From a virus: DNA of 28,340 nucleotides. Below the pieces are notes generated by a model. It made no database searches. It saw only the letters and a list, made by a program, of their open reading frames with translations, and was not told the DNA's origin. Shown piece after piece: positions 2,701-26,165 of the stretch. The position numbers and the translations under genes are program-made. Numbering within the stretch: the stretch's first letter is position 1; each line of letters opens with the position of its first letter. Location of the stretch: positions 1 through 28,340 of the IMG/VR virus record IMGVR_UViG_3300028829_004122; one strand, given 5' to 3'.

Positions 2701-3440
2701 TAGAAAAATGCGCAGTAATGGCTCGATGTGCGCAAATAGCTTATATGGATGGAAAAGAAGCCAAAACAGAATACAGAAAATTAGGATACACATCACACAG
2801 ATTTATTGAAAGCGACGGTGCACAGGTACATATAGTTTCAAATAAAAATGAAATCGTTTTGTGTTTCCGTGGAACAGAACCAGGAGAGTTTTCAGATATT
2901 AAAGCTGACCTAAATGCTTTACCAGATAGAGCTCAAAATGGTTCAGGATTTGTCCATAATGGATTTCAAGAAGAAGTAAATAAAGTATGGGATCAAATTA
3001 ATATTGCCCTATCAAAAATGAAACTATCAGATAAAAAGTTTTACATCTGCGGCCATTCACTCGGCGGTGCTATGGCTACTATTGCAACCAGTAGGTTCGG
3101 TACTAAAGTTGATTGCCTTTATACATACGGATCTCCAAGAACAGGGACTAGAAAATTTGTTAAGTCGTTTAGTAATATACCTCATTTCCGCCATGTTAAC
3201 AATAACGACCTGGTCACTTGTGTTCCTTTTGCTATCCTGGGATATAGACACCATTCGCAACCGCGCTATATCAACTACTTTGGAAAAATCAGAAAAATGA
3301 GCAAATGGCAACGCACAAAAGACAAGTGGCGTGGACGTTGGGCGGCAATAAAAAAGAAAATGCCTTTTGATGGCGCATATGACCATAGTATGGTTTATTA
3401 TTCAAAATACACGGAGGAGAATAAAAATGGCAATGCCTGA
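2697..3440 (+). CDS. Class 3 lipase-like alpha/beta hydrolase, 247 aa
   Basis: This is a probable serine ester hydrolase of the fungal-type (class 3) lipase family, acting on acylglycerols or phospholipids. The nucleophile motif is G-H-S-L-G-G at residues 119-124 (Ser121). The candidate acid is Asp171 in N-N-N-D-L-V and the candidate His is His230 in Y-D-H-S-M. The order and spacing suit the family, as does the strand L-C-F-R-G-T-E (55-61), which shapes the oxyanion hole. There is no signal peptide, so it would be cytoplasmic unless a neighbouring membrane protein exports or recruits it. A basic, Trp-rich segment (about 195-222) could bind membrane phosphates. The gene overlaps both neighbours and is embedded among membrane-anchored proteins. 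A role in envelope remodelling or lysis is inference. Confidence 0.85.
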   Translation: MIEKCAVMARCAQIAYMDGKEAKTEYRKLGYTSHRFIESDGAQVHIVSNKNEIVLCFRGTEPGEFSDIKADLNALPDRAQNGSGFVHNGFQEEVNKVWDQINIALSKMKLSDKKFYICGHSLGGAMATIATSRFGTKVDCLYTYGSPRTGTRKFVKSFSNIPHFRHVNNNDLVTCVPFAILGYRHHSQPRYINYFGKIRKMSKWQRTKDKWRGRWAAIKKKMPFDGAYDHSMVYYSKYTEENKNGNA

Positions 3441-4164: not shown

Positions 4165-4309
4165 AAATAGATTAAAAGAAAGAACAAGTTGGGATGGGAT
4201 CGGATTAGTCGGTCTTGGCCTACTTGTTTTATTTATGGCACCACTTGCCAAAATTGGCGCAGGCGTTGCAATTGCCTGGGGTGCATGGACTATTTGGAAA
4301 TCTGAATGA
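4151..4309 (+). CDS. Very small hydrophobic membrane protein, 52 aa
   Basis: The frame runs from the ATG at 4151, preceded by AAGGAGAG, to TGA at 4307-4309. It has a basic N terminus (MAWIKNRLKERTSWDG), then a hydrophobic stretch of about 30 residues split by a Lys near residue 34, long enough for one or two short membrane helices. The stop overlaps the start of the IscA-like gene (ATGA). The ribosome binding site, spacing and membrane character argue it is real. It could be a small holin-like or regulatory membrane peptide; no family is recognised. Confidence 0.65.
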   Translation: MAWIKNRLKERTSWDGIGLVGLGLLVLFMAPLAKIGAGVAIAWGAWTIWKSE

Positions 4310-4590
4310 TTTTGAATATCACAGACAATGCTAGAGAGTATCTAAAAAAGGTCGGTAAACCAAACGTGTCATTAACCGTAAAAGGTGGAGGATGCTCTGG
4401 TTTTCAATATGAATGGGGTGTTACAGAAAAAGACCCTACCGTGGAAAACCTTTGGTTAGATCCTATGGCTGAAATGTTTATATTTGGATGTACTGTGGAC
4501 TATATTGAGGAATTAGGCGGATCTTATTTAAAAGTAATAAATCCAAATGCAACCGCATCATGTGGGTGTGGCGAAAGCTTTGCCGTTTAA
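4306..4590 (+). CDS. A-type iron-sulfur carrier (IscA/HesB family), 94 aa
   Basis: Proteins of this family carry or deliver Fe-S clusters to target proteins in the cytoplasm. The three cluster cysteines are visible in family context: G-G-G-C-S-G-F (residue 35) and C-G-C-G-E-S-F (87 and 89). The length of 94 aa is normal for a bare HesB domain (about 100 aa). An extra Cys lies near residue 62. HesB-like genes recur in marine T4-like phages (established knowledge). Here it directly precedes the heme-oxygenase/bilin-reductase pair, which would draw electrons from a [2Fe-2S] ferredoxin. A supporting role there is inference. Translation is coupled to the small membrane protein upstream. Confidence 0.92.
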   Translation: MILNITDNAREYLKKVGKPNVSLTVKGGGCSGFQYEWGVTEKDPTVENLWLDPMAEMFIFGCTVDYIEELGGSYLKVINPNATASCGCGESFAV

Positions 4591-4679: not shown

Positions 4680-5243
4680 ATGGATAATTTAAGAGAAATT
4701 ACAAAACAAGAACATCGTCGAGCTGAGCGTACTGCCTTTATGGGTAGGATGATAAAGAAACAATTAAGTCCTTATGATTATTACCTATATCTTAAGAACC
4801 AGCTTTTTGCGTATACAAATCTTGAATATTATGCTGTAGAGGCTGGTGCTATTACTAAAGATATGGAACCAATACTCAGAGGTGCAGCATTAGTAGATGA
4901 TGTTATGACTATGGAGTTAGAGCATGCCTATTCCGCAGCACCTATATTACCAGCAACAGATCACTATGTAAAATATATCAAGCAAATTAAAGATGATAAA
5001 GACAGGCTATTAGCCCATGTATATGTCCGTCATATGGGAGATTTATCAGGTGGGCAAATCATCAAAAAGTTTGTACCTGGCCCAACGGCCTTATATGAAT
5101 TTGATAAAAACGCGGATGAGCTTAAAGAGATTATCCGTTCTAAATTGCATAATGATTTGGCAGAAGAATCAAAAGTATGTTTTACTATGGTTCAAAAATT
5201 CCTTGAAGAACTTGAAGAATATATTCAAGAAGGTTCTAATTAA
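4680..5243 (+). CDS. ho1: Heme oxygenase (biliverdin-forming), 187 aa
   Basis: The enzyme opens heme to biliverdin IX-alpha, CO and iron using reduced ferredoxin. His12 in T-K-Q-E-H-R-R-A-E fits the proximal heme ligand region. The distal-helix signature G-D-L-S-G-G-Q is at 120-126, followed by I-I-K-K. Total length is 187 aa, shorter than the roughly 240 aa of cyanobacterial HO1, as is typical of phage heme oxygenases. No membrane tail is present, so it is cytoplasmic. It is followed 30 bases later by the bilin reductase, which would use its product. Promoter and hairpin elements lie just upstream. The fold assignment is strong; activity is inferred. Confidence 0.93.
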   Translation: MDNLREITKQEHRRAERTAFMGRMIKKQLSPYDYYLYLKNQLFAYTNLEYYAVEAGAITKDMEPILRGAALVDDVMTMELEHAYSAAPILPATDHYVKYIKQIKDDKDRLLAHVYVRHMGDLSGGQIIKKFVPGPTALYEFDKNADELKEIIRSKLHNDLAEESKVCFTMVQKFLEELEEYIQEGSN

Positions 5244-5273
5244 TTTTAATCACAAAATAGAAGCAAATGATAT

Positions 5274-5954
5274 ATGACACAATTATGGGATAGGCTTAAT
5301 GATTATGCCTCATATCTGTGGACACGATTTGATGATGAATTTCAAAGATATCACGAACATGGTATGGATGGGTTAGAATTTAAAGATTGGAACGATACCT
5401 TTTGGTGTTCTCATCATATTCGTAAGTGCCACTTAAAAACAATTTCACCGGCAAACGGCAAAGGTTTATGGCTTATGCATGTAAATATTTTTCCAAAGAA
5501 AGATATTGAATTGCCTATACTCGGCTTTGATATTGTTGCCGGGCCCAAGAAGATAACCGGATCTTTTATGGATTTTAGTCCATTACACGGATTTCCTCAT
5601 CCCTATAATGATCATATGCATATGCGTGTTAAAGGCCTAGAATGGAATAAACCTCGTGAATTGCCTAATTGGGCAAAGGAGATATTCTCAGACGATATGG
5701 TTGCGGTCGGCAATATCAATACCGAGTCTGAACTTGAGCAATTTATTGAAGTAACATCTGACCTTGTAGATTTTTATTTAAATAATTTAGAACAAAACTG
5801 TTTTAGCGCAAGGCGTGAAACAGCACCTATACTAAATAAGTATTGCCAAAACCAAAAAATGAATCCCCACTTGCATCGGTCAATGCTGACTATGGGTATT
5901 TCTGAGACTGATAAAGATGCATATATTAATAACGTACTTTTTGAAGAAATTTAA
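5274..5954 (+). CDS. pcyX: Ferredoxin-dependent bilin reductase, PcyA/PcyX-like, 226 aa
   Basis: Members reduce biliverdin to phycobilins with electrons from ferredoxin. The family core is visible: L-M-H-V-N-I-F-P (His69), L-P-I-L-G-F-D-I-V-A-G (80-90), and M-D-F-S-P (Asp100), the conserved Asp proposed to protonate the bilin. The C-terminal K-Y-C-Q-N-Q and V-L-F pattern matches PcyA more than PebA/PebB. PcyX, a PcyA-like clade reported from uncultured oceanic phages and paired with a phage heme oxygenase, makes phycoerythrobilin; PcyA makes phycocyanobilin. I prefer PcyX from the context, but the product cannot be decided by eye. Length is slightly below the usual 230-250 aa. The ribosome binding site is weak (AGAAGCAAATG). 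Confidence 0.87.
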   Translation: MTQLWDRLNDYASYLWTRFDDEFQRYHEHGMDGLEFKDWNDTFWCSHHIRKCHLKTISPANGKGLWLMHVNIFPKKDIELPILGFDIVAGPKKITGSFMDFSPLHGFPHPYNDHMHMRVKGLEWNKPRELPNWAKEIFSDDMVAVGNINTESELEQFIEVTSDLVDFYLNNLEQNCFSARRETAPILNKYCQNQKMNPHLHRSMLTMGISETDKDAYINNVLFEEI

Positions 5955-16022: not shown

Positions 16023-16056
16023 TTGACATTATAAGTAAAATATAGTAATATAAATA
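16023..16056 (+). promoter_or_regulatory. Combined sigma70-type and late promoter of the glycan cassette
   Basis: TTGACA (16023-16028) and TAATAT (16046-16051) are spaced by 17 bases, and TATAAATA (16049-16056) overlaps the -10. The late start site would fall near 16062, inside the left arm of the following terminator hairpin. This is the only strong promoter I see before the 10-kb string of overlapping glycan genes. Confidence 0.75.
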
Positions 16057-16113: not shown

Positions 16114-16662
16114 ATGAAAGAATGGTTTGAAGGAAAAACTGTTTCTGTAGTTGGTAATGCACAATCACTTATCAACCAAAAGTTTGGTCAGGAAATAGAT
16201 CAAGCAGATGTCGTGGTTCGTATTAACCGCGGTGGATACAGATATCTTGAATTTAAAAAGCAAATGGGATCAAAACTTGATGTGTGGTGTATGCAAAATA
16301 TACGCCAAAACAAAGCGCATTTTGGTAGAGCACAAACAAAAGGTGCTCATAAAATGCAAATGGACACAATAGATATATCTCCACAATTTATAGAGTTAGC
16401 TGATGCCGTGTTTTCAAAAGAAGACCGACAGGCCCTTGATATTAATCTAACAAAGAAGTCGTCGTCAGGCCTTAGAGTACTATATTACATATCAAAACAA
16501 AATCCTCTTAAAGTTTCAGTATACGGTTTTGATTGGAAGAAAACTTATTCTTGGCACGAAAGGCGTAAATGTGTCGCTCATTTATTTGATGAAGAGCGTA
16601 AATACTGTTTTAATAATTTTTTTAACACAGACACCTTTTTTCTTCGTGGCTATCATGTATAA
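16114..16662 (+). CDS. GT29 (sialyltransferase-like) glycosyltransferase, 182 aa
   Basis: The N-terminal V-S-V-V-G-N-A-Q-S-L (10-19) then G-Q-E-I-D-Q-A-D-V-V-V-R-I-N (25-38) resembles the sialylmotif L (V-G-N-x-x-S-L ... I-D-x-x-D-x-V-x-R-x-N). The later S-S-S-G-L-R-V-L-Y-Y-I ... V-S-V-Y-G-F-D-W resembles motif S (S-T-G-L ... V-x-x-Y-G-F). GT29 enzymes transfer CMP-activated acidic sugars. No signal or membrane segment is present, so it is a cytoplasmic soluble form, and at 182 aa it is close to a minimal domain. Two paralogs lie at 25096-26165. Donor identity is unknown. Confidence 0.8.
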   Translation: MKEWFEGKTVSVVGNAQSLINQKFGQEIDQADVVVRINRGGYRYLEFKKQMGSKLDVWCMQNIRQNKAHFGRAQTKGAHKMQMDTIDISPQFIELADAVFSKEDRQALDINLTKKSSSGLRVLYYISKQNPLKVSVYGFDWKKTYSWHERRKCVAHLFDEERKYCFNNFFNTDTFFLRGYHV

Positions 16663-16687
16663 TTTTTTTATTTAGAAAGAAAGAATA

Positions 16688-17476
16688 ATGAAAATAAATG
16701 CTGTTACGTGTTTTAGCCTTAAAGGTTGGAAAGAAACTGGTACGCTATTAGTAAAAGGTTTTATTGAACATTGGCCTAAAGATACTTATTTGACCGTATA
16801 CGTTGATGATCCTATTCCAAAGAATAGTCTTATACGTGATGATAGAGTTAAATATAAAATACTTAACCACCCAGAGCTGTTAAGCTTTAAAGAACGGCAT
16901 GTGAATAATAAAGAAGCTAATGGCCTAGGATCTAAATCCAAAAAAGGCGGTAAAGATTATATGTTTGATGCTGTTAGATTTAGTCACAAAGTATTTACTC
17001 TTTTTCAGTTTCTCGAAGAAGAAAAAACTAATCTCCTTATATGGTTAGATGGTGACAGCAGAACACATTCTAAAGTAGAAGTTAAAGATATCTTGAATTG
17101 GATTCCGCCTAACAAATTTGCCGGATATCTTGCTAGACCTTGGATGTACACAGAAACAGGATTTCATATATTTAATATGGACCATGAGATATCTAAATCG
17201 TTTTTGAATACTTGGAAAGAATATTACACGCAAGACACTATATTTAAACTTGATAAATGGACTGACTGCCATACTTATGATGCTGCTAAGTTAAATTTTG
17301 ATGATGGATATTGGCACAACCTAAGCCCTGGTGTAAGAAACAATCATCCTTTTATTAATGGTCCTCTTGGCGAGTTTATGGATCATATGAAAGGTCCTAG
17401 AAAGATAAAAGGCACTAGTCATAGAAAGGATTTGATTGTTCAAAGAGAGCATAAATATTGGAATAACGTAAAATGA
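16688..17476 (+). CDS. Putative GT-A-type glycosyltransferase, 262 aa
   Basis: The key feature is L-L-I-W-L-D-G-D-S-R-T-H (about 116-127), whose D-G-D is a DxD-like metal/nucleotide-sugar site as in GT-A enzymes. The N-terminal A-V-T-C-F-S-L-K-G-W and V-Y-V-D-D-P are also typical of these. A Trp/Tyr/Asp-rich acceptor-side region follows. There is no membrane segment. It overlaps the next gene by 4 bases (ATGA). Sugar and acceptor are unknown; the context implies glycan assembly. Confidence 0.7.
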   Translation: MKINAVTCFSLKGWKETGTLLVKGFIEHWPKDTYLTVYVDDPIPKNSLIRDDRVKYKILNHPELLSFKERHVNNKEANGLGSKSKKGGKDYMFDAVRFSHKVFTLFQFLEEEKTNLLIWLDGDSRTHSKVEVKDILNWIPPNKFAGYLARPWMYTETGFHIFNMDHEISKSFLNTWKEYYTQDTIFKLDKWTDCHTYDAAKLNFDDGYWHNLSPGVRNNHPFINGPLGEFMDHMKGPRKIKGTSHRKDLIVQREHKYWNNVK

Positions 17477-18357
17477 TATATGTGTTTTTGTCGGGCAAAC
17501 GAGAACAAGATCGTTATTTAAAACAGGTCGCAATTGGACTTGGAGGAAAGATTGTTTATACGAGACAATTTTTATCGTTTACGCCACACAGGCCAGGAAT
17601 GCCAAGGCAAATAAAAACTAAAAAATTACATGATGCAACAGGTTTAGTTTTTGCAGGCATGCTTAGAGGAAATTATTACCTCTTAAGAACCGCCCTAGAT
17701 AATAACATACCTTACTATTACGTAGATCATGCATATCGTGGAAATGGATATAATAGTCCATTTTGGATGAGAATTACAAAAAATGGTTTCTGCCAAAATC
17801 AAATATTACCTGATGTAGATTCTCAAAGATTTAATAACCATTTTCCTTTAGCTGAGTTTAAAGACTACAATTTTAAAGAAAAGAAAAATATTGTAGTTCT
17901 CCCACCGAGTAATACTGTTGCACGAGTATTTGGTGATACAAATTGGGAATCTGTCATAACAAAAAAGATTAGAGAACATACAGATAGACCTATAGTTGTA
18001 AGAAGAAAAAATGGTCCGATTTTAGATAGTGAAATGCTGTTACAAAAGGATAAAGAAAAATATTATTATGAACATACTCTTGAACAAGCTTTAGACGAAG
18101 CATATTGCGTAGTGGCTTATAATAGTGCTGTTGCACTCGATGCGTTACAAAAAGGTATACCAGTTTTATGTGAAAGATTTTGTCCTGCATACCCGCTATC
18201 TCATGAAATATCTGAAATTGAAAATTTAACCGAAAAAGATCGCCGGCCGCTTTTTGAAAGCCTTATATGGGGCCAATATAAAATGAAAGAAGTGACTGAC
18301 CCAAGAACTTTTAAATTCATAAATAACTCTACACAATGGAAAGGAATTATTAGATAA
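17473..18357 (+). CDS. Putative GT-B-like glycan transferase/capsule-type protein, 294 aa
   Basis: The C-terminal half contains V-V-A-Y-N-S-A-V-A-L-D-A-L-Q-K-G-I-P-V-L-C-E (about 221-242). This resembles the S-[ST]-x-x-x-x-A-L-x-x-G-x-P-V loop of capsule (Kps-type) and other GT-B transferases that binds the donor phosphate. The N-terminal part has alternating strands and helices with G-L-V-F-A-G-M. It overlaps neighbours by 4 bases and 1 base. No signal peptide is present. It may be a Kdo- or hexose-type transferase; the exact class is not determinable here. Confidence 0.6.
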   Translation: MIYVFLSGKREQDRYLKQVAIGLGGKIVYTRQFLSFTPHRPGMPRQIKTKKLHDATGLVFAGMLRGNYYLLRTALDNNIPYYYVDHAYRGNGYNSPFWMRITKNGFCQNQILPDVDSQRFNNHFPLAEFKDYNFKEKKNIVVLPPSNTVARVFGDTNWESVITKKIREHTDRPIVVRRKNGPILDSEMLLQKDKEKYYYEHTLEQALDEAYCVVAYNSAVALDALQKGIPVLCERFCPAYPLSHEISEIENLTEKDRRPLFESLIWGQYKMKEVTDPRTFKFINNSTQWKGIIR

Positions 18358-18689
18358 TGAAATATGTGATTGATATTGACGGTACTATCTGTAAAGAAGT
18401 ACTTTTACCAAACGGCAAAAAAGACTATGCGTTACACGAACCAATGATGGATCGTATTGCCAAAGTAAATAAATTATATGACGCAGGTCATGAAATTAAA
18501 TATATGACGGCCCGTGGCGCAGTTAGTAAAATTGATTATTACGAATTGACTAAAAATCAATTAGACAAGTGGGGAGCAAAACATCACGAATTGAGTGTTG
18601 GTAAAAAAGAACACTACGATGTTTGGATTGATGATAAAGCATTTTGGAGTGAAAACTTTTTTCGTGAAACCGGTGAGACTTATGAGTAA
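18357..18689 (+). CDS. Small HAD-family hydrolase/phosphatase, 110 aa
   Basis: The motif D-I-D-G-T (6-10) is HAD motif I with the nucleophile Asp6 and general acid Asp8. T-A-R-G (about 52-55) fits motif II (Thr), and the C-terminal V-W-I-D-D-K-A (about 91-97) fits motif IV acid residues. A Lys (near 83) may be motif III. At 110 aa there is no cap domain. HAD proteins of this size occur in capsule and LPS gene clusters, where they act on sugar phosphates. It overlaps the PEP carboxykinase start by 8 bases. The substrate is unknown. Confidence 0.8.
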   Translation: MKYVIDIDGTICKEVLLPNGKKDYALHEPMMDRIAKVNKLYDAGHEIKYMTARGAVSKIDYYELTKNQLDKWGAKHHELSVGKKEHYDVWIDDKAFWSENFFRETGETYE

Positions 18690-19881
18690 CATTGAAATAA
18701 CAACTAGCCCGTCAGGTCGTAGTCCAGAGAGTAAATACTTTTTTGGAAGTCGTGCCAAGGATGCCTTAGATCTATCAAGACCTAAGTATAATAAAATTGG
18801 AAATGAAGAAGACTATCAAGTTATGCATATGCGTATGGACCTAATGGACTATGCGCATAATCTTGTATTCTATACCGCCGGGATGTGTTTTCGTGTTGAA
18901 ACTAACGATGATAGACATGCACAGTTTGTTCGTAACATGTTCACTGTTGTGGAGGATAACCCATTAGAGCATACAGCAGACTGGACTATTATACACCATA
19001 CGGAAATGATTGTAGACGAGCCATACATTTATGTTCATTTGGATGAGAATGTTATGCTTATTGGCGGTACTACCTTTTTAGGTGAAATTAAAAAAGGTGT
19101 GTTTAGTATTATTTCATTTGAAACGCCACCTGCCGGTGTTCTACCTATGCACTGTTCTGCATTTACATATAATGGAACAACCAACCTAATGTTTGGTCTT
19201 AGCGGCACAGGTAAAACAACACTATCAAGTGACCCTGATTATGAATTAATTAGTGATGATGAAGTTCTTTGGAACCAGGACGGTATTGAAATGATTGAAA
19301 CAGGGTGTTATGCTAAAAGCGAAGGACTAACACCAGATACCCATCCAACTATTTTTAATGCAGTTGAGTCGGCACGAAGTAAAGATACTCTAGTTGTAGA
19401 AAACCCAGGTGCTGCAAACGCAAGGCTAAGTTATCCAATTAGTTGTGTTGAAAATGCGTATCATACACCAATATTTTTTAGTCACCCTGATAATATATTC
19501 TTCTTAACAATGGATGTAACTGGTTCATTCCCGCCTGTTAGTAAAATAAGTGGTAAAGTAATTAGACGTTTTTTTGAAACCGGGTACACCAGCCAAATGC
19601 CTGGTACAGAAGCAGGGAGTGATGAAATTAAAAAAGTATTTTCACCTTGTTATGGATCACCGTTTATGCCACGGGCAATACAAGAATATAGTGATCTATT
19701 GATGCAAAAGATACACGCTAATGATTGTAACGTTTACTTAATTAATACTGGAATGGGAACTGATGGTAAACGTTTTGATTTAGCTTTTACACGTAAATGT
19801 GTTAAATCAGCAATAGATATAGGAGCTAGTGATGATAGTGAATGGTGTTCACAAGCTTTAGAGGAATTGATTAATGGTTAA
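18682..19881 (+). CDS. pckA: ATP-type phosphoenolpyruvate carboxykinase, 399 aa
   Basis: The enzyme converts oxaloacetate and ATP to PEP, CO2 and ADP, the first committed step of gluconeogenesis. Key residues known from E. coli PckA all have counterparts: S-G-R-S-P (Arg13, cf. Arg65), I-K-K-G-V-F-S (Lys137/138, cf. Lys212/213), M-H-C-S-A (His157, cf. His232), P-loop G-L-S-G-T-G-K-T-T (172-180), D-D-E (192-194) and N-A-R-L-S-Y-P-I (Arg248, cf. Arg333). I chose ATG 18682 over an open frame from 18595, which would bury the start deep in the upstream gene. At 399 aa it is about 140 residues shorter than bacterial PckA (about 540), having lost the N-terminal domain mostly. It appears catalytically intact. 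Confidence 0.93.
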   Translation: MSNIEITTSPSGRSPESKYFFGSRAKDALDLSRPKYNKIGNEEDYQVMHMRMDLMDYAHNLVFYTAGMCFRVETNDDRHAQFVRNMFTVVEDNPLEHTADWTIIHHTEMIVDEPYIYVHLDENVMLIGGTTFLGEIKKGVFSIISFETPPAGVLPMHCSAFTYNGTTNLMFGLSGTGKTTLSSDPDYELISDDEVLWNQDGIEMIETGCYAKSEGLTPDTHPTIFNAVESARSKDTLVVENPGAANARLSYPISCVENAYHTPIFFSHPDNIFFLTMDVTGSFPPVSKISGKVIRRFFETGYTSQMPGTEAGSDEIKKVFSPCYGSPFMPRAIQEYSDLLMQKIHANDCNVYLINTGMGTDGKRFDLAFTRKCVKSAIDIGASDDSEWCSQALEELING

Positions 19882-19987
19882 TACTTGGCACTATCAATTA
19901 ATGCGCCACAAAGATGGCTATTTAGCAGTACATGAATATTATTATATGGATGGAAAAAATTCTGTATGGACAAAGGAACCAGAATGA
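19874..19987 (+). CDS. Tiny conserved phage protein, 37 aa
   Basis: The ATG at 19874 overlaps the pckA stop by 8 bases and its stop overlaps the next start. The sequence MVNTWHYQLMRHKDGYLAVHEYYY, with a later S-V-W-T-K-E-P-E, matches, from memory, a short family found in marine phages (W-x-Y-x-x-x-R-H-x-D-G ... H-E-x-Y-Y ... W-T). It is Trp/Tyr/His-rich and beta-like. Function unknown. Confidence 0.65.
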   Translation: MVNTWHYQLMRHKDGYLAVHEYYYMDGKNSVWTKEPE

Positions 19988-20175
19988 GTAAAGTATTAAT
20001 GTGTGATCCACCCAGCGGATGGAAGTATGGTTTTCCTAAGCCCTTCCCAGCAGACTTCCTCGAAGATGAGAGTATTATTCCTTGGCTGTTGGAGCAAGGT
20101 TATCCACAAGCAGAGATTGACAACTGCGGCAAACACTTTTATTGTAGATTTTGGGAAACAGACACAGATGACTGA
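19984..20175 (+). CDS. Small hypothetical protein, 63 aa
   Basis: An in-frame upstream ATG at 19966 exists, but the ATG at 19984 overlaps the preceding stop (ATGA) and is preferred. The protein is Pro/Trp/Asp-rich (CDPPSGWKYGFPKPFP), with three Cys and an acidic C terminus. It looks like a compact domain of unknown function. It is in a string of small genes inserted between pckA and fba. Confidence 0.6.
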   Translation: MSKVLMCDPPSGWKYGFPKPFPADFLEDESIIPWLLEQGYPQAEIDNCGKHFYCRFWETDTDD

Positions 20176-20194
20176 ATACGATGGAGGATAAAGG

Positions 20195-20359
20195 ATGAAG
20201 TTTACACACCAACACAGTAACGGCACAAAGATTGAAATAGAAATGGCAGAACATGCGTCTATGGATGCTGTTCTTGAAGAGTTTCAAAACTTCCTTCGTG
20301 CTTGTGGATATATGATTGAATATAATCAAGTGTTAACAATAGAGGATATGGACGAATGA
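20195..20359 (+). CDS. Small conserved phage protein, 54 aa
   Basis: The ATG at 20195 follows GATGGAGGATAAAGG, a strong ribosome binding site. The sequence MKFTHQHSNGTKIEIEMAEH, with a helix V-L-E-E-F-Q-N-F-L-R-A-C-G-Y, resembles a short phage family in which a beta hairpin is followed by F-x-x-F-L-x-x-C-G-Y. Its stop overlaps the next start (ATGA). Function unknown. Confidence 0.65.
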   Translation: MKFTHQHSNGTKIEIEMAEHASMDAVLEEFQNFLRACGYMIEYNQVLTIEDMDE

Positions 20360-20877
20360 AAGTTAAAATTGGCGGATATCCAAACTATCACTATTGGTTA
20401 GATAAGTTTTTTGGGTGGAACCCTAAACAAAAGATAAGCGTTCGTATTGATAATCATGATACGTGGAGCATGGATCATACCCTTGCTCACGTTATCCACC
20501 CCATGCTAGTTCAATTAAAAGAAACAAAGCATGGCGCTCCTATGGTAGACATGAAAGATGTTCCACGAGAACTACGTGCTACTAAAAAGCAGTTGGACGC
20601 ATACGGCAAGAATGGTGATGTTGATCCTAAGTTCTTTGAGCGTTGGGACTGGATCATGGATGAAATGATCTGGGCGTTTGAACAAAAGTGTCGTGATGAT
20701 TGGGAAAGTGATTACTACGAACATCATGTACTAAGTCCAGATGAAAAAAATTACGACGGTTTCTTTGGCGGATCAAAACTTGTGTGTAAGGACCCCAAGG
20801 GTTTGAAAGCACATCAAGAGCGTATGAGCAATGGATTCCGACTCTTCGGCAAATATTATGAAAACTTATGGGATTAA
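20356..20877 (+). CDS. Conserved marine-phage protein of unknown function, 173 aa
   Basis: Segments such as V-R-I-D-N-H-D-T-W-S-M-D-H-T-L-A (30-45), Q-L-K-E-T-K-H-G-A-P (53-62), D-V-P-R-E-L-R-A-T and R-W-D-W-I-M-D-E-M-I-W-A-F-E-Q match an unassigned protein I recall from many marine T4-like phages. It is soluble and rich in Trp, Asp and His, with possible metal ligands (H-D, D-H, H-H). It starts 4 bases inside the preceding gene. No enzymatic motif is clear. Confidence 0.8.
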   Translation: MKVKIGGYPNYHYWLDKFFGWNPKQKISVRIDNHDTWSMDHTLAHVIHPMLVQLKETKHGAPMVDMKDVPRELRATKKQLDAYGKNGDVDPKFFERWDWIMDEMIWAFEQKCRDDWESDYYEHHVLSPDEKNYDGFFGGSKLVCKDPKGLKAHQERMSNGFRLFGKYYENLWD

Positions 20878-20944
20878 TATAATGATGCAAAAGAAACAAT
20901 ACAAATAATACTTAATGATATTGATAAACATGGAGTGATAGATT

Positions 20945-21739
20945 ATGAGTAAATTTATAGCGGCGATGGATCATAGCGGCGGATCAACTGGCGGTGTATT
21001 AGATCGTTACGAGCAAACTTATACTGAAAAAAATAAGATGGATCTCGTACATAAAATGAGATTACGTATGGTAAACTCACCAGACTTTACAAGTGAAAAC
21101 ATTTGGGCGGCGATCTTATATAAAGATACGGTTGAACGTGGAATGGTTCCTATTCTAAAATCAAAAGGAATTAAATCATATCTCAAAATTGATAGTGGTT
21201 GTGAACCAAACGGATACCTAAAACATTTCAAGTACCATGATATGATTGAGTTTGCAATTCAGAATGGCTGCTCAGGAACTAAGATGCGAAGTATTGTTAA
21301 AAATATAAATCAAATGGATATGATATTAGAACAGCAATTTGCGTTAGCAGAAGAAATATATAAAGCTGATTTAATGCCTATTGTTGAACCCGAAATTCCT
21401 ATAGACCATCATCAAAAACAAAACGTAGAAGATTTGTTACACGAGCAACTTTCTAAAAGATTAGACGCATTTAAAGGAAAGTGTATTCTAAAACTAACAT
21501 TGCCTGAACAACCAAACTTTTACAAAGATATTATGGAGCATAAAAAAGTTCATAAAGTAGTTGGCTTAAGTGGAGGTTACAGTACTAAAGAAGCGTGTAA
21601 ACGTTTGTCACAACAAGACGGCATGTCCGCTAGTTTTAGTAGAGGGTTAAGTGAAGGTCTATACGCTAATCAGAGTGAAACTGAATTTAATTATGCAATT
21701 GCTAAAAATATTCATATGATTAAAGAGGCGGGAAAATGA
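20945..21739 (+). CDS. fba: Class I fructose-bisphosphate aldolase, 264 aa
   Basis: It condenses dihydroxyacetone phosphate with glyceraldehyde 3-phosphate (or cleaves FBP). The bacterial class I pattern is very clear: A-M-D-H-S-G-G-S-T (7-15), G-T-K-M-R-S-I-V-K (111-119), P-I-V-E-P-E (145-150), I-L-K-L-T-L-P-E-Q (181-189), G-L-S-G-G-Y-S (207-213) and A-S-F-S-R-G-L-S-E-G-L (229-239). Lys183 in the K-L-T-L-P motif is the likely Schiff-base lysine. Length 264 is about 30 residues below the usual 295, mainly at the N terminus. A 67-base gap with TATAAT at 20878-20883 but no good -35 precedes it. It overlaps the ColD-like gene by 4 bases. Confidence 0.95.
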   Translation: MSKFIAAMDHSGGSTGGVLDRYEQTYTEKNKMDLVHKMRLRMVNSPDFTSENIWAAILYKDTVERGMVPILKSKGIKSYLKIDSGCEPNGYLKHFKYHDMIEFAIQNGCSGTKMRSIVKNINQMDMILEQQFALAEEIYKADLMPIVEPEIPIDHHQKQNVEDLLHEQLSKRLDAFKGKCILKLTLPEQPNFYKDIMEHKKVHKVVGLSGGYSTKEACKRLSQQDGMSASFSRGLSEGLYANQSETEFNYAIAKNIHMIKEAGK

Positions 21740-22899
21740 AATATAAATTAGCTAGTGATACGTGGGATCAAGAAGAGATTTGGGCAATACATCGTGTAAT
21801 TGCAAGCGGCCGTTATACTATGGGAGAAGAAGTAAAAAAGTTTGAAAAACAGTTTGCAGAATTCTTTGGCACTAATCATGCCGTAATGACAAATAGTGGT
21901 AGCAGTGCAAACTTAATTTCAATTGCAGCTTTAGCATTAAATCCAGAGTATAAAAACAAAGGAAATATCATTGTTCCTGCTGTAAGTTGGAGTACTACTT
22001 ATTTTCCTGTACACCAATGGGGATATACACTTCGTTTTGTTGACGTTGATCCCTATACGTTTAATATAGATGTGGATAAAGTTGAGGCTGCAATAGATGA
22101 AGATACCGCCGCTATCTTTACTGTAAACCTATTAGGAAATTCCTCTGATCTGCCAGGTTTAAAAATGTTATGTGATAAGTATAATATTACTCTTCTTGAG
22201 GATAATTGTGAAAGCTTAGGTGCGTCTGCAGAATTTAATTTAAAATGTGGATCCGTGGGTGAGATGGGTACCTTTAGTTTCTTTTTTAGTCACCATATGC
22301 AAACAATGGAAGGCGGTATGGTTTTAACAAACGACGGAACAACTGCTGAATATTTAAAGAGCCTTCGTGCCCATGGTTGGATCCGAGATATGGAAGAAGG
22401 TAGCAGTCTATATGAGAAATCAGGAGACCCGTTTGAAGATAGCTTTAAATTTATATTGCCCGGCTATTGTGTAAGACCTTTAGAAATGAGTGGTGCAATA
22501 GGTCAAGAACAATTAAAGAAATGGCCAAATATGATGGTTGGTCGTCGAGCAAATGCAGTACATGCAAAAGAAGCCTTTGGAAAAATAAAAGGAATGAGAC
22601 TACAACGAGAATATGGGGAAAGTAGCTGGTTTGGTTTTGGTATTGTTCTTGAAGAGCATTTAAAAGGTAGGCGTAAAGAAGTCATTAATATTCTTACAGA
22701 AAACGAAGTTGAAACACGTCCTATTGTTGCCGGCAACTTCATGAAGAACCCAGTTATAGATAGATTAAATTGGGATAGTGTAGGAACATTTGAAGCGACC
22801 GACGATCTCCATGAAAATGGTTTCTTTATTGGAAACGACTCAATAGATTTAAAACAGGAGATAAACATGGTAGCAGATATAATTGGAAACATAAAATGA
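21736..22899 (+). CDS. colD: ColD-like PLP-dependent GDP-sugar 3-dehydratase, 387 aa
   Basis: The fold is DegT/DnrJ/EryC1 sugar aminotransferase, with an N-terminal T-N-S-G-S-S-A-N-L PLP-phosphate loop (52-60) and L-L-E-D-N-C-E-S-L-G (153-162) holding the PLP Asp. Where aminotransferases have the PLP Lys, this has F-S-F-F-F-S-H-H-M-Q-T-M-E-G-G (180-194), with His186 aligned to the Lys. Replacement of Lys by His is the mark of ColD, which removes the 3-OH of GDP-4-keto-6-deoxymannose instead of transaminating C4. The adjacent GDP-mannose dehydratase supplies that substrate. No extra Fe-S cysteine motif as in RfbH/E1 is evident. The product would be GDP-4-keto-3,6-dideoxymannose. Confidence 0.88.
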   Translation: MKYKLASDTWDQEEIWAIHRVIASGRYTMGEEVKKFEKQFAEFFGTNHAVMTNSGSSANLISIAALALNPEYKNKGNIIVPAVSWSTTYFPVHQWGYTLRFVDVDPYTFNIDVDKVEAAIDEDTAAIFTVNLLGNSSDLPGLKMLCDKYNITLLEDNCESLGASAEFNLKCGSVGEMGTFSFFFSHHMQTMEGGMVLTNDGTTAEYLKSLRAHGWIRDMEEGSSLYEKSGDPFEDSFKFILPGYCVRPLEMSGAIGQEQLKKWPNMMVGRRANAVHAKEAFGKIKGMRLQREYGESSWFGFGIVLEEHLKGRRKEVINILTENEVETRPIVAGNFMKNPVIDRLNWDSVGTFEATDDLHENGFFIGNDSIDLKQEINMVADIIGNIK

Positions 22900-23876
22900 A
22901 AACGGCGTTAATCACGGGGTTTCCCGGCCAGGATGCTTGTTATCTTGCTGAACTACTTTTAGAAAAAGGATATGATGTCCATGGAATAGTTAAAAGATAT
23001 ACGAGCCCAAATTGGTCAAATATAGAATACTTAAATCTTTTTAATATGGGATTAAAAACTCATATAGGTGATGTTACAGATATGTGTAGCTTAATGGATA
23101 TTATGGAAATCGTACAACCTGACGAATTTTATAATCTTGCAGCACAAAGCTTCGTCGGTGGATCATGGCGTCTTGCATATGTAACCACCCACGTAGACGC
23201 TATAGGACCTCTCAATTGTCTTGAAGCTATTCGTCGAGTTAAACCCTCTTGTAAGTTCTATCAAGCTGCAACGTCCGAAATGTTTGGTAATAGTAATACC
23301 GAAGGCAGGCAAACAGAAAAAACTCCGTTCGAGCCTGCTAGCCCGTATGGAGTTGCGAAATTATATGGTTTTCATATTACAAAAAATTATAGAGAAAGTT
23401 ATAATATGCATGCTTGCTCGGGTATTTTATTTAATCATGAGTCACCTATTCGCGGTATTGAATTTGTTTCAAGAAAGATTACCGATGGCGTAGCAAAAAT
23501 TGTATTAGGCAAGTCTGATAAAATTGTATTAGGTAATCTAAACGCCGAGCGAGATTGGGGCCATGCTAAAGATTACGTCCTTGCACAGTGGCTTATGTTA
23601 CAGCAAAATAAACCTGAAGATTTTATAATTGCAACTGGCATTAAACACACTGTAGGAGAGTTATGTGAACTTGCGTTTAAAATAGCAGGAATACAAAACT
23701 GGGAAAAGCATGTGATATCAGATAAAGAGTTTCAAAGACCAAATGAATTACATAGCCTTCACGCTGACTCAAGCAAAGCTAAACAACTATTGGGATGGGA
23801 ACCAGAATATTTATTTGAGCAAATGATACATGAGATGGTTGTTGAAGATATACGAAGACATGAAAGTACAAAATGA
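22896..23876 (+). CDS. gmd: GDP-mannose 4,6-dehydratase, 326 aa
   Basis: It converts GDP-D-mannose to GDP-4-keto-6-deoxymannose with NADP. The N-terminal Rossmann motif A-L-I-T-G-F-P-G-Q-D (4-13) is the GMD form of GxxGxxG. The catalytic set is A-T-S-E-M-F-G (125-131) and Y-G-V-A-K (Tyr151, Lys155). L-F-N-H-E-S-P-I-R-G and R-D-W-G-H-A-K-D-Y-V are GMD-specific. Length is slightly below bacterial GMD (about 345-370 aa). It overlaps both neighbours by 4 bases. It feeds the ColD-like enzyme upstream and probably the reductase downstream. Confidence 0.95.
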   Translation: MKTALITGFPGQDACYLAELLLEKGYDVHGIVKRYTSPNWSNIEYLNLFNMGLKTHIGDVTDMCSLMDIMEIVQPDEFYNLAAQSFVGGSWRLAYVTTHVDAIGPLNCLEAIRRVKPSCKFYQAATSEMFGNSNTEGRQTEKTPFEPASPYGVAKLYGFHITKNYRESYNMHACSGILFNHESPIRGIEFVSRKITDGVAKIVLGKSDKIVLGNLNAERDWGHAKDYVLAQWLMLQQNKPEDFIIATGIKHTVGELCELAFKIAGIQNWEKHVISDKEFQRPNELHSLHADSSKAKQLLGWEPEYLFEQMIHEMVVEDIRRHESTK

Positions 23877-24415
23877 AAATAGTAGTCACTGGTCATACGA
23901 GTGGTTTAGGTAAATCTTTATATCAAAGCTTTTCTAAAAATCATCATGTAATTGGATTGAGTAGGTCAAATGGATATAATTTAGAGTCGGATATTGAACC
24001 GTTCGTCGCACATAATTTTGACGTATACATTAACAATGCATATTATAAATATTCTCAAGTTGATATTTTATATGAACTATTTAATAGAAATAAATATAAA
24101 TGTTGCACAATTATTAATATTGGTAGTGTCAGCGCAGATGGTAATAGAGATACTGTTAACGAATACGCAGTTCATAAATCTTCATTAGAAAAAGCCTGTA
24201 CCCAGCTTCAGTTAATAGATTCTGAATGCAAGGTAGTACATTTAAAACTAGGAAGAATGAATACACCAATGACAGACCATAGGAAAGAATATCCAAGAAT
24301 GGACACCGACTATATTGCCGATACTGTGGATTGGATTATAAACCAGCCTCAGAACATTTTAGTAAAAAATCTAACTTTAGATATTATGCATAGTAGAAGG
24401 AAAGTCATATTATGA
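23873..24415 (+). CDS. Short-chain dehydrogenase/reductase, 180 aa
   Basis: The classical SDR pattern is present: G-H-T-S-G-L-G-K-S-L (7-16; TGxxxGxG type), Y-I-N-N-A (NNAG-like, about 51-55), I-G-S-V-S-A (Ser, about 83-88) and Y-A-V-H-K (YxxxK, about 97-101). At 180 aa it is shorter than most SDRs (about 250). It follows GMD with a 4-base overlap, so a role in reducing the 4-keto group of the GDP-sugar is plausible, though ColC-type epimerase/reductases are longer extended SDRs. Substrate assignment is inference. Confidence 0.8.
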   Translation: MKIVVTGHTSGLGKSLYQSFSKNHHVIGLSRSNGYNLESDIEPFVAHNFDVYINNAYYKYSQVDILYELFNRNKYKCCTIINIGSVSADGNRDTVNEYAVHKSSLEKACTQLQLIDSECKVVHLKLGRMNTPMTDHRKEYPRMDTDYIADTVDWIINQPQNILVKNLTLDIMHSRRKVIL

Positions 24416-25089
24416 TACCAATTTTTATAGGATACGATAAAAGAGAAGCTGCGGCCTATCATGTATGTTCAAATTCAATTATTAGAAACGCAACGTCCCC
24501 TATTAGTTTAAATCCATTGTCACTCAATTTGCTTAAAGGATATGAGGAGAAACATTCCGACGGTAGTAATCATTTCATATATAGTAGATTTCTTATTCCA
24601 CATCTCATGGATTACAAAGGATGGGCTATCTTTATAGACGGTGATATGATACTACGCGATGATATAACAAAACTATGGGATATGAGAGATGAATCAAAAG
24701 CTGTCATGGTAGTAAAACATGATTATAAGACTCGTATGTCTGAAAAATATTTAGGTTCAAAAAATGAAAACTATCCTCGTAAAAATTGGTCAAGCGTAAT
24801 ACTTTGGAATTGCGGTCATGAAGAAAACCGTATCGTAACGACAGATTTTGTTTCAAATGCGACTGGTGCTCAAGTTCATAGATTTACTTGGCTAGAAGAC
24901 GATCTTATTGGAGAACTACCAATTGAATGGAATTGGCTTCCTGACGAATTTGGAAAAAATAAAGATGCCAAACTATTACACTTTACATTAGGTACTCCTT
25001 GTTTTCACGATTTTGCTGATTCGCCAATGGCAGACGAATGGCATCGTGAAAGAATATATGCGGACTACAGCCAGCAGCACGGATTATAA
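24412..25089 (+). CDS. GT8-like glycosyltransferase, 225 aa
   Basis: The start I-P-I-F-I-G-Y-D-K-R-E-A-A-A-Y-H-V-C (2-19) and the catalytic-metal motif I-F-I-D-G-D-M-I-L-R-D-D-I (73-85, DxD) are typical of GT8-like enzymes seen in phage and bacterial glycan clusters. A late L-L-H-F-T-L-G-T-P (about 188-196) provides the conserved His. No membrane segment is present. It overlaps the SDR by 4 bases and ends 6 bases before the GT29 pair. Donor and acceptor unknown. Confidence 0.8.
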   Translation: MIPIFIGYDKREAAAYHVCSNSIIRNATSPISLNPLSLNLLKGYEEKHSDGSNHFIYSRFLIPHLMDYKGWAIFIDGDMILRDDITKLWDMRDESKAVMVVKHDYKTRMSEKYLGSKNENYPRKNWSSVILWNCGHEENRIVTTDFVSNATGAQVHRFTWLEDDLIGELPIEWNWLPDEFGKNKDAKLLHFTLGTPCFHDFADSPMADEWHRERIYADYSQQHGL

Positions 25090-25095
25090 TATATT

Positions 25096-25605
25096 ATGAA
25101 AGAAGTATTTGAAGGTAAAAGTGTTTCGGTCGTTGGTAACGCAAGAAGTTTGTTTGATAAAACTTATGGTCAAGAAATAGATAATCATGATGTAGTTTGC
25201 AGAATTAAAAGAGGGTTCTATCAGCTCAAATCAGATGCTATTATTTCACACGGTTTAAAAACAGATGTTTGGTTTTTAAATTGGTTTAAAACTATGGACC
25301 CTAATAAAGTTACCAACAAAAAAGTAGATCATATTGTCGAAATTCTATATAATCCTGAAATAGACGAAAAATGGTTAATAAAAGATTTAGGTCATCATCG
25401 CCCATCTACTGGGTTAAGGATATTACATTTCATATCTTTATATAATCCAAAGTCCGTAAGTGTTTATGGATTTGATTGGAAGAAGACTCCTTCGTTTCAT
25501 GATAAGCAATTAATTGACGAAAGACATAACTTTGTGTTAGAAGAAGATTATTGTAGAAGGCGGTTTTTTGAAAAACAAAAAGACGTATACAGGTTAGTAA
25601 AATGA
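25096..25605 (+). CDS. GT29 (sialyltransferase-like) glycosyltransferase, copy A, 169 aa
   Basis: It has the same motifs as the protein at 16114: V-S-V-V-G-N-A-R-S-L (10-19), Y-G-Q-E-I-D-N-H-D-V-V-C-R-I (24-37), R-P-S-T-G-L-R-I-L-H-F-I and V-S-V-Y-G-F-D-W-K-K-T-P. The S-T-G-L form is closer to canonical sialylmotif S than the S-S-G-L of the first copy. It overlaps the next paralog by 4 bases. A 44-base exact repeat shared with that gene shows recent duplication or gene conversion. Confidence 0.82.
   Translation: MKEVFEGKSVSVVGNARSLFDKTYGQEIDNHDVVCRIKRGFYQLKSDAIISHGLKTDVWFLNWFKTMDPNKVTNKKVDHIVEILYNPEIDEKWLIKDLGHHRPSTGLRILHFISLYNPKSVSVYGFDWKKTPSFHDKQLIDERHNFVLEEDYCRRRFFEKQKDVYRLVK
25153..25196 (+). 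repeat. 44-base exact direct repeat, copy 1
   Basis: Identical base for base to 25659-25702. It encodes the residues F-D-K-T-Y-G-Q-E-I-D-N-H-D-V-V of the motif-L region in the first of the two tandem GT29 genes. Identity at synonymous positions exceeds what the rest of the two genes shows. Confidence 0.95.
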
Positions 25606-26165
25606 AAAGCTGGTTTGCGGGAAAAACCGTTGCCGTGGTTGGTAACGCTATATCACTATTTGATAAAACTTATGGTCAAGAAATAGATAATCATGATGTA
25701 GTATTACGTATGAACAAGGCAGCTGTTTTATATACTCGTAAAGATGCGTATATAAGTCATGGTTCAAAAACTGATATATGGGTATTTTGGAATACTGCTG
25801 AATATAAATCAATGTTTAAAAACATACCAAGTCATGTAAAGAAAATGCATGCAGGACATCAAGGTAGAACTCCTAATAATCTGCATCTTGTTGATTTTGT
25901 ATATCCTGATCACGGTTTATATCGCGAGTTAAAAAGAAAGGCTGGTAGGCATAATAATCCTACTACAGGACTTATTACTCTTGACTATATATCAAATTGT
26001 GAACCTGTCCATGTTGATGTGTATGGGTTTGATTGGAAAGAAACTCCAACATTTACGGATCCCGAGAAAAAACGTGAACGAATATGCCCACACGATTATG
26101 AAACAGAAAAGGCATATTGTATGAAAACCTTCTTTTCTAGAGAAAACTATATTTTAAAGACCTAA
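25602..26165 (+). CDS. GT29 (sialyltransferase-like) glycosyltransferase, copy B, 187 aa
   Basis: The motifs are V-A-V-V-G-N-A-I-S-L (10-19), Y-G-Q-E-I-D-N-H-D-V-V-L-R-M-N (24-38), N-P-T-T-G-L-I-T-L-D-Y-I and V-D-V-Y-G-F-D-W-K-E-T-P. It differs from copy A in its middle and C-terminal parts (e.g. an extra basic loop around 80-115), suggesting divergent acceptor use. It is the last gene of the glycan string; the next transcription unit has its own late promoter. Confidence 0.82.
   Translation: MKSWFAGKTVAVVGNAISLFDKTYGQEIDNHDVVLRMNKAAVLYTRKDAYISHGSKTDIWVFWNTAEYKSMFKNIPSHVKKMHAGHQGRTPNNLHLVDFVYPDHGLYRELKRKAGRHNNPTTGLITLDYISNCEPVHVDVYGFDWKETPTFTDPEKKRERICPHDYETEKAYCMKTFFSRENYILKT
25659..25702 (+). 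repeat. 44-base exact direct repeat, copy 2
   Basis: Second copy of the sequence at 25153-25196, in the equivalent codons of the downstream GT29 gene, 506 bases away. Homologous recombination between the two copies could delete or fuse one gene. Confidence 0.95.

Follow-up and report, generated by a model that had tools for sequence, protein, structure and literature searches.

A 28,340-nt stretch of viral DNA (IMG/VR record IMGVR_UViG_3300028829_004122, positions 1 to 28,340; hereafter the window) encodes a compact phosphoenolpyruvate (PEP) carboxykinase, PckA, and a class I fructose-1,6-bisphosphate aldolase (FBA) in a single string of phage genes. The pair probably functions as part of an auxiliary metabolic kit for gluconeogenesis found among marine T4-like phages, which here would feed sugar-nucleotide synthesis. 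Computation established the identity of the genes, their active sites and folds, the selection acting on them, their recurrence and synteny, and the standing of the short PckA as the only PEP carboxykinase (PEPCK) found in certain bacteria. The window phage is itself T4-like, with the core replication genes UvsX and gp41 and a late promoter motif, and its gp41-type helicase matches those of T4-like phages of Sinorhizobium, Methylophilales, and cyanobacteria. The initial annotation assigned it to a group that usually carries pentose-phosphate or photosynthesis genes; this is a cyanophage trait, and no cyanobacterial host is indicated here.

The gene string

The pckA and aldolase genes lie on the same strand in a compact string whose members overlap mostly by 1–8 nt. 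Its features are as follows:

16049..16056, + strand: T4-type late promoter motif TATAAATA; the string's first gene starts 65 nt downstream
16114..16662, + strand: GT29-like glycosyltransferase, which opens the string (PF00777, 9.5e-12)
16688..18357, + strand: two genes with no Pfam or PHROG matches, conserved with the pckA–aldolase pair in the nearest relatives, L001–L003
18357..18689, + strand: small HAD phosphatase, 110 aa (phrog_1238; EcbF/BcbF capsule-phosphatase-like), with an 8-nt overlap with pckA
18682..19881, + strand: pckA, compact ATP-type PEP carboxykinase, 399 aa (PF01293, predicted fold, active-site residues)
19874..20359, + strand: three small ORFs (37, 69, and 54 aa), not between pckA and the aldolase gene in L001–L003
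20356..20877, + strand: 173-aa phage protein, phrog_11543
20945..21739, + strand: class I fructose-1,6-bisphosphate aldolase, 264 aa (NF003784, 2iqt, catalytic residues)
21736..22899, + strand: ColD-like GDP-4-keto-6-deoxymannose 3-dehydratase
22896..23876, + strand: GDP-mannose 4,6-dehydratase, Gmd (PF16363, E = 3.8e-112)
23873..24415, + strand: short-chain dehydrogenase (SDR), possible 4-keto reductase (weak SDR matches)
24412..25089, + strand: glycosyltransferase family 8 (GT8; PF01501, 1.3e-8)
25096..26165, + strand: two GT29-like glycosyltransferases (PF00777)

The three small ORFs and the phrog_11543 gene fill the interval between pckA and the aldolase gene in the window, an interval of only 6 nt in L001–L003; in another locus, L070, a phrog_11543 homolog lies two genes upstream of the aldolase. 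The TATAAATA motif occurs at five intergenic places against 0.37 expected, and is placed alike in L001 and L002, 61 nt upstream of the string. Scans for sigma-70 promoters and terminators performed no better than on shuffled sequences.

The HAD protein matches phrog_1238 (6.8e-21), TIGR01689 (3.4e-5), and 9iqw (6e-8), and its DxDGT, T, K, and DD motifs are conserved among 35 distinct homologs. It is a candidate sugar-bisphosphatase partner of the pair, but could have another sugar phosphate as substrate. The ColD-like protein aligns with ColD (PDB 2gms, E = 3e-107) through the SHH motif, with His replacing the PLP lysine, while Gmd scores 378 bits against TIGR01472 (cut-off 415). Judging from ColD, the sugar made beside the pair looks like a 3,6-dideoxyhexose. 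No phosphomannomutase was found within the window, and a cupin encoded beside the aldolase (c16) gave no convincing match as a phosphomannose isomerase.

A compact PEP carboxykinase and a trimmed aldolase

The pckA reading frame is unbroken from its ATG at 18682 to its stop at 19881, and its product exceeds the gathering score of PF01293 (298 bits against 26.5, E = 1.4e-88). It falls below every NCBIfam cut-off for full-length PckA (best score 288 bits against 636), as expected because the protein is shortened; the enzyme should nonetheless not be labeled “standard PckA”. At 399 residues against 540 in the E. coli enzyme, it is about 140 residues shorter, as the initial annotation had stated. 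The profile match spans E. coli residues 63 to 471, and relative to E. coli PCK (1aq2, 6at3) the phage protein is missing ~62 residues at the N-terminus, ~70 at the C-terminus, and internal loops. Residues R65, G209, K212, K213, H232, C233, S250, K254, T255, D268, D269, R333, R449, and T455 (E. coli numbering) are invariant in 43 viral homologs, and the ligands of oxaloacetate, Mn, and Mg-ATP (R65, K213, H232, K254, T255, D268, D269, R333, R449, and T455) are all kept in phage PckA. The earlier statement that every key motif is retained thus holds for all tested catalytic, metal, and nucleotide residues but one: Tyr207 of the substrate pocket, which is Phe132 in the phage protein and Phe in 41 of the 43 viral homologs. 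A structure of the E. coli Y207F enzyme with oxaloacetate bound exists (PDB 6at3).

The AlphaFold model (pLDDT 91.4) displays the bilobed PEPCK fold and is matched to E. coli PCK by Foldseek with a TMq of 0.86 (E = 2.6e-38). The short form constitutes a clade separate from canonical ATP-type PckA, with a long branch between them. From these features, we predict that phage PckA is a compact, catalytically complete, and active PEPCK.

The aldolase scores 243 bits against NF003784 (E = 4e-72), below the model cut-off of 392, and matches PDB 2iqt at 38% identity (E = 1.1e-46), to which its predicted TIM-barrel compares with a TMq of 0.94 and an rmsd of 1.8. It shares the fold and full catalytic set of this fda/PRK05377-type class I aldolase, but is trimmed at the N-terminus. 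The residues equivalent to D33, K107, K146, R148, E187, E189, S300, and R303 are invariant in 21 viral homologs, as is the Schiff-base lysine K229 (K183 in the phage aldolase), bearing out the remark that all family motifs are kept.

Median dN/dS values of 0.10 for PckA and 0.22 for FBA indicate strong purifying selection. PckA copies contain no stop codons, and a single one (L074) has a broken frame, possibly through an assembly error. This copy is all that was found in favor of the genes being recent, decaying host-derived passengers, a view contradicted by the dN/dS values, the 91 viral relatives of PckA, and deep viral diversity, and with practically no chance of being correct. The degraded insertions with frame damage that the initial annotation had named as grounds for abandoning its proposal are not what the viral copies look like; the pair is intact, recurrent, and set among phage genes, and evolves under purifying selection, as is expected of auxiliary metabolic genes (AMGs).

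Recurrence in phages and in marine bacteria

The short-PckA signature appears in about 112 IMG/VR contigs and an aldolase of this type in at least 215. The pair, earlier described as an unusual module, thus belongs to gene families shared by some hundred or more related phage contigs; it is no lone oddity. Whole PckA-bearing records contain FBA in 26 of 46 cases and GAPDH in 13 of 46. PckA and FBA lie within 8 kb of each other in 15 of 18 dereplicated records, where 6.2 are expected, and in nine of 12 records longer than 40 kb (p = 5e-5 or less). Chance is ruled out for the two genes and their arrangement.

The tie between them is only loose. FBA is commoner than PckA and mostly occurs without PckA nearby: PckA lies within 6 kb in 9/50 aldolase loci, and the main partner of the aldolase is the HAD phosphatase, found at that distance in 34/50. 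Other recurrent neighbors are GAPDH (no more than 100 bp from FBA or PckA in eight of 13 records), phosphomannomutase (near PckA in 15/43 relatives), KDO-8-P synthase (KdsA), and PRPP synthase (Prs; no farther than 6 kb from the aldolase in 8/50 loci and directly adjacent in several). GAPDH and KdsA score above curated cut-offs (TIGR01534 and NF003543), and KdsA occurs in 6/43 PckA neighborhoods, for example close to PckA in L037, L038, and L040; a sister clade of the window phage carries it beside PckA. In several clades, PckA sits among replication genes (gp43, gp44, gp46/47), away from glycan genes, and PurM adjoins it in L056 and L079. Among isolate phages, INPHARED yielded only nine records, at 30–39% identity and mostly with the annotation or size of bacterial contaminants; neither gene was found in sequenced phage isolates, nor was a cultured model phage.

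In single-cell genomes of five uncultured species of one marine alphaproteobacterial genus, the short PckA likewise turned up as the sole PEPCK, although these genomes are incomplete and may miss a second PckA; no paper naming them was found. There, the gene adjoins hprK–rapZ, the ancestral locus, where canonical pckA is retained by relatives in the order; in four sister species, only the canonical enzyme (534 aa) occurs, encoded at another locus. Because it is the only PEPCK found in these five bacteria and sits at the native locus, their apparent reliance on the short form suggests that it works, and provides natural evidence of function. An AU test on the direction of transfer does not reject viral monophyly of short PckA (p = 0.289), which is recovered in 0 of 200 bootstrap trees. 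It may be, though we advance this only tentatively, that a phage-evolved minimal PEPCK entered marine alphaproteobacteria and replaced canonical pckA at its native locus, leaving gluconeogenesis to a viral-type enzyme. The aldolase gives no sign of originating in the short-PckA bacteria, since an fda-type aldolase was found in none of the five genomes and only four strong matches (37–42% identity to the window protein) occur across 142 genomes of the bacterial class.

Proposed role, alternatives, and precedents

In the route that we propose, PckA would convert host oxaloacetate and ATP to PEP, which host enolase, phosphoglycerate mutase, and phosphoglycerate kinase, with a phage GAPDH in some relatives, would carry to triose phosphate. 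The phage aldolase would condense this to fructose-1,6-bisphosphate, and the co-encoded HAD phosphatase or a host FBPase could then pull the product toward hexose phosphate. From the position of the pair in a presumably late-expressed string that also encodes Gmd, ColD, and glycosyltransferases, the most likely sink in the window phage would be a glycan containing a GDP-mannose-derived 3,6-dideoxyhexose; in other clades it may be KDO or PRPP. The initial annotation likewise had carbon flowing into hexose phosphates and on to GDP-mannose sugars. The functional-looking enzymes and their linkage in the string support this, while the activity and direction of flux are ones we infer; the link to the GDP-mannose pathway is strengthened by the successive 4-nt overlaps joining FBA, ColD, Gmd, SDR, and GT8, by the upstream late-promoter motif, and by the phosphomannomutase genes near PckA in relatives. 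The PEPCK and aldolase reactions are both reversible, which, like the Phe in place of Tyr207, counts against the kit. So do the many FBA loci lacking a nearby PckA and the placement of PckA among replication genes in several clades.

The gluconeogenic carbon might instead pass mainly into nucleotides, via the non-oxidative pentose phosphate pathway to ribose-5-phosphate and PRPP for phage DNA. Prs beside the aldolase, PurM beside PckA, and the replication-gene setting of PckA point that way, and phage carbon AMGs, including those of cyanophages, are usually read as dNTP supply (PMC4053976). We consider this rather unlikely, however, as the window pair is embedded among glycan genes behind a late-promoter motif and adjoins no nucleotide gene. 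A smaller chance attaches to PckA supplying PEP to the PEP-condensing synthases of KDO, sialic acid, or legionaminic acid, with the aldolase serving separately: family GT29 takes its name from sialyltransferases and KdsA lies near PckA in the sister clade, but the window string yielded no PEP-condensing sugar synthase and no CMP-sugar synthetase, and KdsA is limited to those six neighborhoods. With no such synthase found, the earlier suggestion that PEP provides an acidic sugar for the GT29 enzymes has no support in the window.

ATP-type PEPCK is reversible and runs from PEP to oxaloacetate in some CO2-rich fermenters, and this would favor a reversed PckA that turns PEP, CO2, and ADP into oxaloacetate and ATP, whether anaplerotic or ATP-making, during infection. 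The accompanying aldolase, GAPDH, and phosphatase, the marine heterotroph setting, and the ordinary pckA locus occupied by the short form in its bacteria make this highly unlikely. That short PckA has taken on a different role, for instance as a kinase of PEPCK fold acting on small molecules or proteins, is scarcely credible: the lost residues, the Tyr207 change, and the long branch would fit such a shift, but the oxaloacetate, metal, and nucleotide residues are all retained, and five bacteria have it as their only PEPCK found, at its native locus. The gluconeogenic kit remains our preferred reading.

Known carbon AMGs of marine phages include talC, zwf, gnd, fba, and manA (PMC4053976), and both fba and class I FBA (K01623) have already been seen in viromes. 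These are likewise phage-borne central-carbon enzymes, but they serve the pentose phosphate pathway or glycolysis, whereas the kit here would be gluconeogenic; the main text of that survey does not mention pckA. A study of trench-sediment viromes names both pckA and ALDO as viral AMGs from KEGG annotation only, and its available text describes neither a linkage between them nor their lineage, active sites, or replacement of host genes (PMC12448302). An aceBA operon for the glyoxylate shunt, carried by a T4-like marine viral genome (PMC5332604), would similarly push C2/C4 carbon toward gluconeogenesis, but is an upstream step without PckA. The paper on PcyX/Shemin phages mentions neither PEP carboxykinase nor aldolase. 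As listed viral genes, pckA and aldolase are therefore already known; what appears to be new is the lineage of compact PEPCKs, the kit, and the replacement of the host gene.

Most known phage carbon genes come from cyanophages, where they drain sugars into nucleotides. If true, the kit described here would take the opposite first step, converting TCA-cycle acids to sugars in phages of heterotrophs. Lambda lysogens turn pckA off (reviewed in PMC6359870), and a phage gluconeogenic kit would therefore be the lytic counterpart. A 399-aa PEPCK on which ocean bacteria seemingly rely makes the minimal size of this enzyme, as well as the exchange of a central-metabolism gene between virus and host, directly testable.

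Identity and active sites of the phage PckA and aldolase

Both gluconeogenic genes named in the initial annotation lie where it placed them: pckA at 18682-19881 (399 aa) and the aldolase gene at 20945-21739 (264 aa). PckA, a compact ATP-type PEP carboxykinase (PEPCK), matches profile PF01293 with 298 bits. The class I fructose-bisphosphate aldolase matches the fda-type model NF003784 with 243 bits and, at 1e-46, the 2iqt enzyme of P. gingivalis. Both proteins fall short of the NCBIfam cut-offs, which derive from full-length enzymes. Aligned with solved enzymes, the phage PckA spans E. coli residues 63 to 471, lacking the first 62 and last ~70 residues of the E. coli protein, and its loops are trimmed. 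The predicted PckA model (pLDDT 91.4) has the E. coli and Thermus PEPCKs as top structural matches (TMq 0.83-0.87), and the aldolase model (pLDDT 94.5) superposes on 2iqt with a TM of 0.94.

Both active sites are intact. The equivalents of R65, G209, K212, K213, H232, C233, S250, K254, T255, D268, D269, R333, R449, and T455 are invariant in 43 viral PckA sequences, which bears out the earlier reading that the key motifs are kept, but that reading overlooked the position of E. coli Tyr207, occupied by Phe in 41 of the 43. PDB entry 6at3 is, by its title, E. coli Y207F crystallised with oxaloacetate bound, so a site with Phe there can still hold substrate. The Schiff-base lysine and other catalytic residues of the aldolase are kept in 21/21 viral sequences. 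Residue numbers follow the usual E. coli PEPCK and rabbit aldolase numbering; most of the former are confirmed by PDB titles.

Spread, selection and loose linkage of the phage genes

PckA relatives occupy at least 91 viral loci in IMG/VR (61-82% identity in those aligned), a DNA signature of the short gene occurs in 112 contigs, and aldolases of the window type occur in at least 215. No internal stops were found in the PckA copies; a frame break divides one of them (locus L074). Both genes are under purifying selection: the median dN/dS is 0.10 for pckA, and for the aldolase gene it is 0.22. Because relatives are this numerous and low in dN/dS, and the PckA copies free of internal stops, the genes are not the recent degraded insertions with frame damage in relatives that had been considered initially. 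Neither protein was found at viral-like identity among INPHARED phage isolates. Several phage-collection records (AFYI01000003, AGRM01000003, OR845349, OR851181, OR849896, and others) resemble bacterial sequence, with canonical PckA or aldolase matches.

PckA and the aldolase form a loose kit rather than a fixed pair: searches over the full length of 46 PckA-bearing records found an aldolase in 26 and a GAPDH in 13. Among 18 dereplicated records with both PckA and aldolase, the two are no more than 8 kb apart in 15, against 6.2 expected under random placement; for records longer than 40 kb the figure is 9 of 12 (2.7 expected, p = 5e-5). In 8 of 13 records a GAPDH gene is found at most 100 bp from one or the other, and a viral GAPDH copy is above the GAPDH-I cut-off. 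Within six genes of PckA, 43 dereplicated neighbourhoods contain phosphomannomutase (15), aldolase (14), GAPDH (8), a small HAD phosphatase (8), and KdsA (6). The aldolase is most often accompanied by the small HAD phosphatase, at 34 of 50 loci (22 of them within 300 bp), followed by PckA (9), PRPP synthase (8), GAPDH (7), and KdsA (5).

Other phage-borne genes were recorded at these loci. Type I GAPDH above the curated cut-off occurs at L019 (1364-2329) and 14 other loci, and matches phrog_21942, labelled as of unknown function. A eukaryotic-type (HAD) phosphomannomutase occurs at L079 (9233-9937) and 26 other loci, directly after pckA in several phage clades, and a KDO-8-phosphate synthase lies near pckA in one clade (L037, 2437-3231).

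Phage fba is already known from viromes (PMC4053976), and K01623 has been reported there as well (PMC4022391). For trench sediments, PMC12448302 names pckA and ALDO as viral genes from annotation alone, and a marine T4-like virus genome carrying aceBA has been tied to gluconeogenesis (PMC5332604). The open literature searched yielded no report of the compact PEPCK lineage, of such a PEPCK being linked to genes for aldolase, GAPDH, and phosphatase, or of a compact PEPCK as the sole bacterial one.

The window gene string and its probable adjoining sugar pathway

Judged by UvsX, a gp41-type primase-helicase, and further genes common to T4-like contigs, the virus of this 28,340-base IMG/VR record is T4-like; for the primase-helicase, the best matches come from T4-like phages infecting Sinorhizobium, Methylophilales, and cyanobacteria. 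At 4680-5954 the same phage carries genes for a heme oxygenase (PF01126, 85 bits) and, behind it, a ferredoxin-dependent bilin reductase (PF05996, 72 bits), a hemO-pcyX/pebS-type cassette of a kind familiar from marine phages, together with an ErpA/IscA-type iron-sulfur carrier gene (4306-4590; TIGR00049, 68 bits, above cut-off) and a class 3 lipase-like gene (2697-3440; PF01764, 73 bits). The pair lies in a single-strand string with overlaps mostly of 1-8 nt:

16114-26165, one strand, first part: GT29-like, two unassigned genes, HAD, PckA, small ORFs, phrog_11543
16114-26165, one strand, second part: aldolase, ColD-like, Gmd, SDR, GT8, two GT29-like
16049, 11214, 11227, 4617, and 26170, coding strand: intergenic T4 late-promoter motifs TATAAATA

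The motif occurs six times in the window, always on the coding strand, and five occurrences fall in intergenic DNA, which makes up 6.7% of the sequence and would be expected to hold 0.37. One precedes the first gene of the string by 65 nt and has a counterpart at the corresponding position in relatives L001 and L002; another stands after the string. It is reasonable to infer that the whole string is transcribed late. In the nearest viral relatives (L001-L003), PckA and aldolase are 80-83% identical to those of the window and spaced by 6 nt, with the same glycan genes following.

The gene at 21736-22899, which resembles a sugar aminotransferase, has ColD as its best match (3e-107) and the diagnostic His in place of the PLP lysine. 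It probably encodes a ColD-like 3-dehydratase making 3,6-dideoxyhexoses, and for this reason the adjoining pathway most likely runs from GDP-mannose through GDP-4-keto-6-deoxymannose to GDP-4-keto-3,6-dideoxymannose, a colitose-type route rather than a perosamine one.

We propose that phage PckA would convert oxaloacetate to PEP, that lower gluconeogenesis would fall to host enzymes, joined in some relatives by a phage GAPDH, and that the phage aldolase would form fructose-1,6-bisphosphate, to be dephosphorylated by the HAD protein or a host enzyme. In the window phage, the hexose phosphate could then be used for GDP-sugars. The HAD protein keeps its DxDGT, Thr, Lys, and DD motifs in aligned homologues and resembles capsule-biosynthesis phosphatases; it may act on fructose-1,6-bisphosphate, and coupling to a phosphatase would pull the aldolase reaction toward hexose phosphate. 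The pair might instead serve nucleotide supply, with which PRPP synthase and PurM as neighbour genes are consistent, or PEP might be used directly, as the KdsA clade suggests; reverse flux is a further rival to the gluconeogenic direction.

Short PckA in marine alphaproteobacteria

The viral PckA alignment was run against 84,980 species genomes in a scan that depends on exact conserved peptides and could miss divergent forms; it recovered short PckA at viral-like identity in only five marine alphaproteobacterial genomes (L090-L094, from single cells or metagenomes) and two MAG-binned phage contigs. The latter (L088 and L089, binned into Marinimicrobia and Flavobacteriales MAGs) match phage loci L028 and L076 in nearly all genes. 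The five genomes belong to one 12-species genus, in which five species have short PckA alone and four the canonical 534-aa form alone; no PckA of any form was found in the remaining three. Short-form species share 84-90% ParC identity with one another (full-length copies) and 71% with the canonical group.

In relatives within the order, canonical pckA adjoins rapZ-hprK-chvG-chvI (the chvG/chvI names were assigned by eye), with a conserved ~555-aa gene on the other side in some. Short-form species carry short pckA between rapZ-hprK and the 555-aa gene. In the four canonical-form sister species (L199, L200, and L202 against L217-L219), pckA is absent beside hprK-rapZ (three loci read) and lies elsewhere; if the contig reaches far enough, its neighbours there are urease or xanthine-dehydrogenase-like genes.

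A careful PEPCK tree places the bacterial sequences inside viral diversity, in a cluster with three viral ones (100/100). None of 200 bootstrap trees unites the viruses in one clade, but viral monophyly is not rejected by an AU test (p = 0.289), so that transfer from virus to host is favoured but not established. The simplest reading is that a phage-type gene replaced canonical pckA at its native locus, and a second pckA is likely absent from the short-form species, whose genomes are incomplete. This bacterial lineage apparently depends on short PckA and, if the replacement is true, the short enzyme would perform the cell's PEPCK work.
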